A stretch of 64,000 bases of DNA from Branchiostoma lanceolatum (lineage: Eukaryota > Chordata > Leptocardii > Amphioxiformes > Branchiostomatidae): positions 6,188,001-6,252,000 of the forward strand of contig NC_089739.1 in assembly GCF_035083965.1 (NCBI RefSeq), given 5' to 3'. The position numbers and the translations under genes were made by a program. A model generated the notes under the pieces. It was given only the letters and a program-made list of their open reading frames with translations. It had not been told where the DNA came from and ran no database searches. Below are positions 23,101-63,600 of the stretch, one piece after another. The stretch's first letter is position 1. The number at the start of each line of letters is the position of its first letter.

Positions 23101-26100
23101 AATCACAACCAACTGCAGTACTGACCTGAGTTGGTAGGAGTCCCCATGACTGCCGGCTGCGGATGAGTTTGTCTACAAGGTCTCCGTCACAGATGCTGTC
23201 GGCGGTTTGACTGAGCAGAGACAGGTGCTTCTTAACATTGCCTCTGGAAAAATAAAAACACCAGTTCACTTTTTGAAAGTTGTAATAGTTTACTGGATAA
23301 ATTTACTTACTGCAGTAAATTGTCTTAAGTTGGCACGGGGACTTAATTTCATAGTGGTGGACGTCACTCCTATGAGTATGGTATGTCATACGGTGCAGTT
23401 TCAGTCCTAATTTCATACTAGGAGGAGAAATGTGATATTTGCAGTGTTTTAACCTTCAACCTGCTAAGGTAGACGATTGGCATCAAATTTGTATTGGTTA
23501 TGGGGTTAGGGTTAGCTGGGAGAAGGTTAAGGTCCGAGTTAAAATTTACAATTATAGTACTGTAAATAACAGTGTACGTAGTAACATGAGCATAATACTA
23601 ACTGCCATGTTCACTGTGTGATGAGTTTGAGGTGAAAGCTCACTGCGAAAAAACACAAATATAAAACCATTGAAAAAAAAATTTCGCAGTACGGTTCTTG
23701 GTGGCAGATGTGCTAGATGTTGGCACATTGCCAGCCAAATCCGTTGTGTGTTTGTCGGCACACTTTCAGACAGATTTGCCGAAGAGGATCGGTGAGCATC
23801 ACTCGAACCACCACATGGAATGTCCTCTAAAGTGCCTTCCCCAAGGGTACAACGTCGGGGCATGGTGAGCATCGAACCCGGGACCTATTGGTTCAACGCT
23901 CTACCCATTGAGCCACACCAACGCCACACGAAACACCTGCAAATATTTCCTGCTTTACAGTATAAAGTATACAAGGTTAACAACAACACAGATGACATGA
24001 GAGCTTGTCCCACCTGGCTGCATGTGGCTGGACGTGAGGGTAGTTCTCCTGCACAAACAGCGGCACCATGCTGTAGTCATGGAAAAACAGGTCACTCTTG
24101 TCCATAATGGTCATCCTAGCCGTTTCCTCATTAGAACTAAACACCTTCCTCGTCACTTCAAATGGACCCTGCAGAAATATTCATAACCATCATCATCAAT
24201 TTTAACAAAAACATCCCTGCAGTTCTAGAACAAACTGCTAGGGAACCTAAACGGCTTTTTCCTTACATTAAAAGCTGCCACCAAAAAATCAAGACCATAG
24301 CATGTCCACAACAAACGATACAGAAACTGGAAGTTCTGCTGCAGTGATAAGGTTGCACACCAGATGGCCCAGAATCTGTGGTCAAAAACAACTGATCTGT
24401 CTGTAGCTACCTTGCTGAGTCAATACAATGTAGTTATAGTAGGTGTCTGGCTCTGCACTATACACATGTAGCTTGGTTTCCAACGGGCTGTCAAGGAGTT
24501 TCCATTATGTGACTGTAGCGCTACTATCATTTCATTTTCTCTCTAGATTCTCCGCAGAATAAAATCTGCGCAAACTTAAATGCATGTACAGTAATCCTGA
24601 CCTGTTTGATATCTTTTGTTGCCTGTTTGGAAGCCTCCTTGGCCTGGTCAAAGGTCAGCGCCTTGTCCTGGACGCTCCACATGTACAGCTGGTGGATGAC
24701 CTGTCGGACATCGTGATTGGTCGCCTCGATGATCTGATTAAGAGCCGGAGGCGGGATCTTCAAGCCTTCCTTGAAGGCCATACTCATCATAGAAGCCTGT
24801 GGACATTAGAAAAAATACCATTGTATGTCTGTGAATGCAAGTCCAGAGTGAGAGTGTATAACCTGTCGGACATCGTGATTGGTCGCCTAAATAATCTGAT
24901 TAAGAGCCGGAGGCGGGATCTTCAAGCCTTCCTTGAAGGCCATACTCATCATAGCAGCCTGTGGACATCAGAAAAATTACCATGATCATAATTTTTTGTG
25001 TAAGTGTGCGGTTAATTCCCAAAATGCACAATGCAGTGTAGCCATAGGGCTTCAGAAAGAGTACAGGTGTCCAACACACACCGCTACCAATGGACAAGCC
25101 CTTATTATGAAGAAAGAGTACTAAGTTGAACACACACCACTACCAGTGGACTAGTCCCTTAGTGATTGCACAACTGTATGGACCAAGGGCTACAGAAAAG
25201 GAGATGGACACCGCCCTATACAAATTATGCAAATAAATTCCTAATTTGTATAATTAATGCAAAAGTGCCTTTAATTCTTCTAAGTGGTAAACAATACATC
25301 GACAGATGTGGGAAGGACTTGAACTTTGAACTCTCACCCTTATCTGTTCCACACGCGGCCTCTGGAACCGCAGGTCGAAGCAGTGGTTGACGAGCGAGCG
25401 CATCTTCTGGTGGGCCCTGTCGTTGCACATGCAGATGATTGGCACTTTGGTTTGTTTTATCAGGTTGATGAGCTCAGCGATCCCCCCACGGTCCTCGTTC
25501 CCCGCCATGCCGTCCACTTCGTCCATTATTACCGCCTGACGCATGGCGCCGTCTGGAATAACAGTTGGTCAAAATCAGGGAAAAACATGTGCATGTGTAT
25601 GTAATTACCAGGGAAACAGGGTGTCCTCTGGGGGTTCCCTGAAAAAGGAGGGCATCTAACTCCTTTGTTTTCTTAATGTAGGGTGTCAAGAAGATTAGGA
25701 AGGAAGGAAGGTAAGAAGGTAGGTAGGAAGGAAGGAAGGAAGGAAGGAAGGAAGGAAGGAAGGAAGGAAGGAAGGAAGGAAGGAAGGAAGGAAGGAAGGA
25801 AGGAAGGAAGGAAGGAAGGAAGGAAGGAAGGAAGGAAGGAAGGAAGGAAGGAAGGAAGGAAGGAAGGAAGGAAGGAGGGTCATATGAAAGAAAAGTCTTA
25901 CATTGCCCTGCTGAGCTGGTATGCAACGGTTCCTACCTTGTTTCTGGAATCCCACAATGCTGCGGGTGGTGAGAGCCTCAGACACCTCCTCCTGTAGGCT
26001 GCGTTTGCTGCGAGTGTCGCTGGCATTCAGCTCAATGTAGGTAAACCCCAGCTCCTACAAGGTAAGAAAACGTCACAATTATAATTAATTGTGACGTTTT

Positions 26101-60600: not shown

Positions 60601-63600
60601 TTCTACTTGGAACTTGAAGCAAGTGATCAAAGAAAATTGTTATATCATTTTATTATGACTGACAATCAGTGACATATAACAAAAATCATCAGAGTACTTA
60701 AGTTAAATGTACCTGATTATATTTTCTAAAGACATCAACCACAAAAAAACACAAATATGAACACAGTCCTTCCACAAAAGAAATATGTCTATAAACTTTT
60801 GCTCCATAGCGTCGAAAACAAAGTGAGACGCTCGGATTTCGAGTTCCCGCGGTAAATCCCAAATTCACCCAAAATATTGAACAGAGATAGACTGTAAAAG
60901 TAGCTCAACGTCACAGACCGCACATACTAAGAAGTTACCCATTACGTGTTGACACTAGAAACCCGCGATGAACCGCCCAAATTGGGAAAATCTTACGATT
61001 ATTTAAAAAAATGAACCCTCTGAAAATAAATATGGCCTTGTGTGTCTATCGTTGCCCAAAAAATATAATATTTCCATGCGTTTACGGTATCATTTTAAAG
61101 ATCGGTATCCGCACTACGCAATATGCTGCTAGTTTTACTGTCGCCATGCCTGAGAGTGGCGGCCATGTTTCGCGATTTCGCGCTGTTGTTTACCGAATCA
61201 TATCGGACATATTTCTGCCGTTTTAGAGATTTTGTGGCCTCAAAACACATATTACAAGGGAAGTTAAGTTATGATTGTTGTTTTAAAGTGTTACATGTCT
61301 TGTTACAAATAATTCTTCCGCCGCGCTGCCGATACTACGGATATAGTGGTCAGGAAATTATTATTCCCCGTGCAGGCGTGCACCCTACTCCACACGTTTT
61401 TGATCAGCGTGCTTTGGTTTACGATATAAACAGAGACTATCAAAGTTATTTATATGAAAATTGTATTTTAAAATGTCAATGTCGCGTCTTTTTTTCCGGT
61501 TTACTTTGTAGCGTCATAGCGATATCGACCGATATGTTACGTGTGCCGCCAGGATACTTTTCACAAGGCCGTCAAAGCGGCGAGAAAATCAACGCCGGTA
61601 GGCCGAAAAATAGCGAATTACGAGCAAAAATACCGGGGAAATATGGGCAGATAAACCTTAACTTACGATTTTAGTGGGATTCCTGGTTTGCAAAGCCTCA
61701 ATTTTTCAAAAAATAATAAACGTACCGTCTAGAATAAGAACGTACCGGGTGGAACTATAGGCGAAAAAAAATAAACGTACCGGTACGTTTATTTGAGAGG
61801 TGAGAGTATGGGCTCCCTGGTACCTTTCTTTGGTACTTCAGCAGAATTTCTGGTTTTTGTATCTGACGATCTGGATGGATTTTTGGGTTGTATAGTTTTG
61901 TTTGCTTTTCAGTTCCCCAAGCGAAAATTTGTAATATGCCTGACTTATAGTTTAGATATGCTAATGCTCTTTTTTTTACTTCAGGTACGTTCAAACGAAA
62001 ACAGAGAAGTCGGTTTCCTCGCCGAAGATCGCCGTATCAACGTCGCGATCACACGGGCGCGCCGCCATCTCACCGTCATCTGTGATTCCGAAACTATCAG
62101 CCACCACAAGTTCCTCTCCTCCCTCATGGGCTACATGTCTACGCATGGGGAGGTGAGAAGTGCTCACCAGTACAGTAATGGTGAGTCTAAATGGTTACAT
62201 CATGTCTACACATGGGGAAGTCAGAAGTGCTCACCAGTACAGTAACAGTGACTCTAGTGGGCTACATGTACGAAACAGATTTACTGACAATGCACATTGG
62301 TTAGATCTACTTTCAAAGAAAATTGTTGTTTTTTTGTGTTTCTCAGAAAGTGAGGTGACAGTGTCGGCAGATTACAGCAACGTTCCAGTCAACGTGCACA
62401 GAAAACAGGCCTCAAAAGAAGCGTCAGGATCGACACAAACCCAAGAACCTAAGACCACTAACAATGATGATGTTACTGCAGAGGTTAAGCAAGAAGTACA
62501 GCCTTCTGTAAATGTTGGACAAGTGGAGAAGAAAGAAACTTCAGATGAATCTAAAACAGAACCACTCTATCAAAAGCAACAGGTAATAATTTTCATTGTA
62601 CATGTACATTTTTTTTTAAATTTTGTTTCAAAGCTTGTTCACTATTTCTTCTAACTGCAAAACGTCTTTAAAAAAAGTTAGATATGATAGTTATTGCCAC
62701 CGTGAAATCAGAGCTTACTTCAGTCCATGTTTTTGTTTCTTTTTAGTCTTTCCATTAGTTATTGTATTTAAATACAGATGTACATCATTATCCTTCTTTT
62801 GCAAAAAAATGTCTCAGTTTGCATGTAATGCTGTTTTCTTGTTTTCAGGCTGTCCAAAACGAACAGAAAGCAAAAGACCCAACCGTAGAACTGGAACAAG
62901 ATGGCTCACTTCAAACTAGTGAATCCGTTGGGGGCACCAAACCAAAGAGAAAGCGAAACAGAAACAGAAACAAGAACAAAAGCAGCTACGAAAATAATAC
63001 TTTGTCTGATAATAACACTGAAAGCAATCAAAAACAAACTATAACGACAGAAAAAGATGAAACAGAAACGCTCACATCAAACTTTGTCACATGTGAACAC
63101 TGTGGGAAGGAACTGCCAAAACCTAACCTAGAGCTTCACACCATGCACTGTAAGAGAGTGGCAGAACTGAAAGGAAAACTACAAGCAGCGAGCGCTCCAA
63201 AAGAGAAACCGCAAGCAGCCCCAAAGCAGCCCTCGTCCAGCCTAGAGAACAAAAGGCGTCCAAAAAGCAGAAAGAAGAAACAAACTGTAGATGAAAAGGA
63301 GGACGAAAGTGATGACCTGGACGCGCTGCTTGCACGTGTGGTGAAGGAAGACCACAGCTGTCATTACGAGCGGTGTAAGAACAGCGTGGCCACGGTTGGT
63401 CAGTTCTGTGTCCACTGTCGTAAGCTGTACTGTCTGAGTCACCACATACCGGAGGTGCACGGCTGTGGGGACGACGCACACATGGAAGCACGCGCCCGAC
63501 TATCCAAGGTAAAGATAGAATACAACACGTGGATTCCATATCACCCTAATCTAAGAGTATGCTTGAATGTCTATGCGATCTATGCAGATATTGAAGTTGT

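Follow-up and report, generated by a model that had tools for sequence, protein, structure and literature searches.

Genes and splice borders of the window

The window analysed here, 64 kb of Branchiostoma lanceolatum contig NC_089739.1 (positions 6,188,001 to 6,252,000), contains five genes that we modelled, RFC1, MRPS17, NDUFV1, IGHMBP2 and a gene with IBR domains, in which six exon-intron borders are tandemly duplicated together with the splice site. The models, for which conserved exon peptides were combined with splice-site scores, comprise 53 introns and 108 borders (55 acceptors and 53 donors). The spliced models of RFC1, MRPS17, NDUFV1 and IGHMBP2 keep the frame open up to the final stop; the first exon of the RFC1 model was not found. 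Comparison of the predicted proteins with solved chains gave matches for NDUFV1 (E 2.7e-258); RFC1 (E 1.6e-206), covered over residues 413-968 of 970 and, by yeast chains, from residue 150; MRPS17 (E 5.5e-31), covered over residues 15-116 of 161; and IGHMBP2, which matched the solved chain of SMUBP-2, the same protein, with E 5.6e-234 over residues 2-652 of the 673 residues submitted from a total of 998. The fifth gene (2041-3612) was recognised by a Pfam match to IBR domains. Borders lying beyond the solved-structure matches are supported by splice scores and open frames. All splice-site scores derive from rough vertebrate frequencies and are meaningful only between copies. The first-pass annotation had spoken of four consecutive genes, a description that is no more than consistent with our models. 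Searches with Rfam at gathering thresholds and with ARAGORN at bacterial settings found no matches in the window.

Six duplicated borders in five genes

Both Tandem Repeats Finder and self-comparison recovered the four tandem duplications across splice sites that had been reported earlier, at the acceptors 24796 (RFC1), 39814 (MRPS17) and 43329 (NDUFV1) and at the donor 62180 (IGHMBP2). Simulated windows gave no match in three with the first self-comparison settings and at most 31.9 bits in four with the second, compared with 77-163 bits at the four loci. We then scanned the modelled borders, taking a segment of 20 intron and 30 exon bases from each and aligning it with the adjacent intron over at most 450 bases; three of the 108, whose intron flank was too short, were left out. 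As a control, each segment was aligned with flanks belonging to different borders, acceptors being paired with acceptors and donors with donors (5,568 mismatched pairs; 2,916 acceptor and 2,652 donor). Of the 105 borders that could be tested, six (4 of 54 acceptors and 2 of 51 donors) carried a copy of themselves in the adjacent intron, with scores of 32-86 that all exceeded the control maxima of 22 (acceptor) and 24 (donor). These included the four borders already known (56-86) and two that the first reading had missed, the NDUFV1 acceptor 46983 (35) and the donor 2141 of the IBR-domain gene (32). The next-highest own scores were 17 (p ~0.012), for one acceptor and one donor. Because the scan keeps one alignment for each border, the best-scoring, a copy masked by a better match not crossing the border would escape it.

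The largest unit is that of RFC1, on the minus strand, where the gene model and self-comparison place the functional copy, comprising intron end and exon start, at 24692-24821 (acceptor 24796) and a decoy 162 bp away at 24854-24983, 94% identical and with an intact acceptor at 24958 (9.6 bits vs 9.7 for the true site). Between the copies there are 2 differences in 25 intron positions and 6 in 105 exon positions, one of the latter creating an in-frame stop codon in the decoy.

NDUFV1, also on the minus strand, carries two duplicated acceptors. At the first, the functional copy (43299-43425, acceptor 43329) belongs to exon 10 of 13 in our model, not to exon 11 as formerly numbered, and is followed at a lag of 141 bp by a decoy (43440-43569) with an intact acceptor at 43470 (8.3 bits vs 9.4); the two are 82% identical between 43299-43405 and 43440-43556 and differ at 8 of 88 intron and 2 of 31 exon positions. 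A third copy of this border, previously unlisted, lies at about 43687-43819 and has decayed, its acceptor scoring just 2.5 bits. At the exon 4 acceptor 46983, the functional copy (46964-47056) is accompanied at a lag of 88 bp by a decoy at 47057-47141 (one alignment extends 2 bp more, to 47055), whose acceptor at 47071 outscores the true one (10.4 vs 9.0 bits); here the copies differ at 8 of 64 intron and 2 of 17 exon positions.

The MRPS17 repeat region (39686-39828, plus strand) has three copies spaced 51 and 47 bp apart: a first decoy of 51 bp with a 4-bp insertion (39686-39736, acceptor 39720), a second decoy of 47 bp (39737-39783, acceptor 39767), and the functional acceptor 39814 with the start of exon 3, encoding VGRIYDPI (39784-39836). 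The two decoys, which adjoin the last exon, are mutually identical except for the 4-bp gap, and the second outscores the true acceptor (12.0 vs 9.3 bits).

The two duplicated donors are both on the plus strand. In IGHMBP2, donor 62180 and the last bases of exon 13 lie in the functional copy (62134-62200), and a decoy of the 67-bp unit follows at 62201-62267, 85% identical and with a donor at 62247 weakened to 2.7 bits from 10.4; the differences fall at 5 of 20 intron and 5 of 47 exon positions. In the IBR-domain gene, the functional donor 2141 and its flanks (2132-2160) are followed by two more copies of the border, in units of about 31 bp (2163-2219), in which the donor is lost or weak (−3.2 and 1.9 bits vs 6.7).

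Unit lengths across the six borders are thus 31, 47, 67, 88, 141 and 162 bp, and each duplication has one authentic copy contiguous with its exon. The statement in the first-pass annotation that only one copy keeps the right frame follows from the geometry, because a copy separated from the remainder of its exon has no means of keeping the frame. A tally summed by hand over seven alignments, two for the MRPS17 copies and one for the closest decoy at each remaining border (without the distal NDUFV1 copy and the third copy of the IBR-domain gene), gave differences at 18 of 248 positions on the exon side and 27 of 269 on the intron side, as might be expected if one exon copy is under constraint.

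Strength and modelled use of the decoys

Three of the five acceptor decoys nearest to true sites outscore the adjacent true site, two in MRPS17 and one at NDUFV1 exon 4. In contrast, the three donor decoys (2.7, −3.2 and 1.9 bits) fall below all 53 modelled donors, a difference that, with two donor borders, is only suggestive. When decoy use was modelled in six cases, leaving out the IBR-domain gene, five of the six decoys led to a premature stop. For RFC1, both NDUFV1 decoys and IGHMBP2 this stop lay 570-1110 nt before the last junction, and for the first MRPS17 decoy it lay within the last exon; use of the second MRPS17 decoy left the frame open to a stop just beyond the normal one (open reading frame ending at 40018).

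Borders compared with the intron background

To set the border rate of 6/105 (5.7%) against the introns themselves, the same alignment and threshold were applied to 2,645 intron-interior points. Local copies were found for 196 points with upstream flanks (7.4%) and 191 with downstream flanks (7.2%), giving a probability of 0.79 for six or more of 105. Exclusion of a 21-copy array lowered the control to 4.0% and 3.9% (P=0.23), exclusion of the border loci to 6.9% (P=0.73), exclusion of both to 3.3-3.4% (P=0.14), and further exclusion of dispersed-looking repeats to 2.8-2.9% (P=0.08). Tandem loci with similar units that lie away from borders occur in the same introns, at 25054 (57 bp), 28517 (43 bp), 44431 (47 bp, 21 copies), 52309 (92 bp) and 60193 (53 bp).

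We also compared the number of distinct loci at borders with that expected if equally sized units were placed at random, after removing low-complexity segments (period 1-6). The genes being intron-dense, random placement predicts that two to three of 12-15 loci fall at borders. The strictest list had 6 of 12 loci at borders (2.0 expected, P=0.006), and longer lists gave 6 of 13 (P=0.021), 6 of 15 (P=0.046) and 6 of 19 (P=0.47); with five border loci, before the sixth was added, P was 0.016-0.067, and 0.66 for the loosest list. The result hinges on which intronic loci count as tandem: strict lists omit the dispersed-looking repeats 34044/34334, 35285/35884, 35803/36084, 41086/41675 and 59380/59864, loose lists keep them, and the ambiguous pair 58503/58886 (100% identical, lag 383) was counted both ways. 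Masking of exons, which leaves the intron halves alone detectable, retained 4 border loci of 17, with P (at least 4) of 0.078, 0.28 and 0.88 for lists of 10, 13 and 17 loci. The counts may in addition be biased toward borders, as selection would hold one exon copy and border pairs would then stay recognisable longer.

The first-pass annotation had suggested either a genome-wide process of splice-border copying or tolerance of decoy sites. Tolerance is evident in this genome. A border-copying process was not borne out within the window, where 5.7% of borders compare with intron-interior rates from 7.2-7.4% down to 2.8-2.9%. The comparison set beforehand, enrichment of tandem repeats at borders over intron interiors, yielded nothing significant by rate, and the nominal excess by locus count faded with wider lists or exon masking. 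A process aimed at borders is therefore unnecessary, although the data leave room for a two- to threefold excess.

Relation to amphioxus mirages and other copied splice sites

The likeness to amphioxus mirages proposed earlier holds. Tandem repeats over exon-intron borders are described under that name, in PMC3087553 and PMC3902484, for Adh3, TnC, the globin genes BflGb6 and BflGb9, and PGBD5, with units of 10-72 bp (Adh3), 150-160 bp (globins) and 60 and 108 bp (PGBD5). Like those mirages, the structures in the window consist of short units over a 5' or 3' splice site, with one authentic copy next to the exon and decoys that often have an intact AG or GT, and their units of 31-162 bp lie in or near the published range of 10-160 bp. 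They differ from the published cases in having fewer copies, two or three, some of them diverged, and in numbering six per 64 kb with an intron control from the same window. Our cases are thus new examples of the known amphioxus kind, some of them old and diverged. Among the papers listed by our literature searches, amphioxus mirages were treated by PMC3087553 and PMC3902484 alone, and a genome-wide survey was not among them; a further listed paper that uses the word, PMC7710358, concerns ascidians.

Two other systems share features with these duplications. When introns are gained through AG|GT tandem duplication (the Rogers model, as outlined in PMC3087553), splice signals are likewise copied locally; related references are PMC4974935, on a potato RdRp gene, and Zhuo 2007 and Gao & Lynch 2009, both cited in PMC3087553. 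None of the modelled introns looks to have arisen in this way: across 50 introns from RFC1, MRPS17, NDUFV1 and IGHMBP2, the donor border of an intron resembled its acceptor border (mean 11.54, best 17) no more than mismatched pairs resembled each other (mean 11.53, maximum 26). Introners (PMC9860276) likewise carry splice sites into several genes as copies of a sequence. Unlike introners, the border copies in the window are local rather than dispersed, and no element shared by the borders of several genes was found among same-type borders with intron flanks of up to 450 bases, where mismatched pairs scored at most 24 compared with 32-86 for a border's own copy.

Origin and persistence of the border duplications

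In our view the six structures are likely to have been left behind by ordinary tandem duplications of local sequence, with units of 31-162 bp, that spanned splice sites by chance and were tolerated as intron. A random local duplication, perhaps generated by replication slippage or microhomology repair, would occasionally strike a splice border. The duplications would persist because the exon keeps one intact border and the extra material is purely intronic. Published work on mirages suggests that the decoys would mostly be ignored by splicing, and transcripts that did use them may mostly be cleared by nonsense-mediated decay. The copies span varied divergence, from the near-identical MRPS17 decoys to the decayed third NDUFV1 copy. 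Several results weigh against this explanation: the border rate has a 95% interval of 2.1-12.0%, the background control comes from one window, borders carry copies at about twice the rate of the harshest intron control, and the locus counts show an excess at borders in the 12-locus and 15-locus lists. In addition, the five acceptor decoys nearest to true sites keep 8.3-12.0 bits, within the 49th-89th percentile of the 55 modelled acceptors, a strength that plain decay need not predict.

The same excess, together with published cases at several unrelated amphioxus genes, is what would be expected if splice borders were true hot spots of tandem duplication, for example through template switching linked to transcription or R-loops. 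We regard this as unlikely, since the border rate does not exceed that of the full intron control (P=0.79), the difference is not significant after any exclusion, the excess of loci shrinks when looser lists (P=0.47) or masked exons (P=0.08-0.88) are used, and a conserved exonic half would by itself keep border copies recognisable for longer. Slightly less credence still goes to a broader version in which borders acquire or retain tandem duplications at two to three times the expected frequency, donor decoys are tolerated only once spoiled, and the spliceosome picks the true acceptor by means beyond the local motif, such as whole-exon recognition; under this version, acceptor decoys as strong as true sites would mean that the spliceosome must use more than the local motif. 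Very improbable, in our judgement, is a function of the decoys as alternative or 'poison' sites that add a premature stop and tune mRNA levels. Acceptor decoys do score like modelled real sites, and the modelled stops in RFC1, NDUFV1 and IGHMBP2 lie well upstream of the last junction, but the MRPS17 decoys are at the last exon, where decay rules are not expected to act, the donor decoys are spoiled, and published mirages are reported to splice normally: according to PMC3087553, the Adh3 data and its own globin RT-PCR suggest regular splicing, and according to PMC3902484 the Adh and TnC mirages generate no aberrant mRNAs. We give equally little credit to an assembly artefact, in which two haplotypes or misplaced reads were set side by side. 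According to the mirage papers, one mirage (BflGb6) was aberrantly assembled and PGBD5 copy numbers differ between assemblies, but the PGBD5 repeats were upheld by re-examined Sanger and new Illumina data; in our window, copies differ by 6-18% at four of the six borders and the NDUFV1 copies are of clearly different age. The near-identical MRPS17 copies are the least protected against an artefact.

The analysis supplies a density estimate with an in-window control, about 1 border in 17 across five genes, for a structure that we otherwise found in scattered gene reports only. If this holds generally, mirages require no special origin. The duplicated borders would also provide natural tests of how the spliceosome skips decoy acceptors of full strength that lie 47-162 nt away from the true site, as well as standing raw material for new exons and introns.

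Other repeats in the window

Three arrays near borders were inspected and not counted, as the border was not reached: 21968-22432, 6 bp short of RFC1 acceptor 21962; 28517-28857, 29 bp from an RFC1 donor; and 52309-52495, 12 bp from an IGHMBP2 acceptor. The first, in an RFC1 intron, contains diverged segment copies at lags of 56, 373 and 429, and is possibly an older border duplication whose exon side is now unrecognisable. RFC1 introns also contain dispersed repeats with the motif GGTGCAC (34044-36131), perhaps a mobile element family. In an IGHMBP2 intron, two 130-bp segments (58503-58632 and 58886-59015), 383 bp apart, are 100% identical and are perhaps part of a mobile element.

Intron 7 of NDUFV1 holds a minisatellite of 21 copies of a 47-bp unit (44431-45420), whose consensus includes the donor-like sequence CCTATG|GTAAGA on the gene strand; in the border scan, the sequence had no match among the modelled borders of NDUFV1. 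Coding tandem repeats also occur in the window, as a 39-bp repeat of about six copies (8100-8404) lies in frame within a long minus-strand open reading frame in which residues resembling those of zinc fingers can be recognised by eye. Finally, there are two long, nearly pure TA runs, at 10691-10799 (54 repeats) and 11053-11248 (98 repeats).

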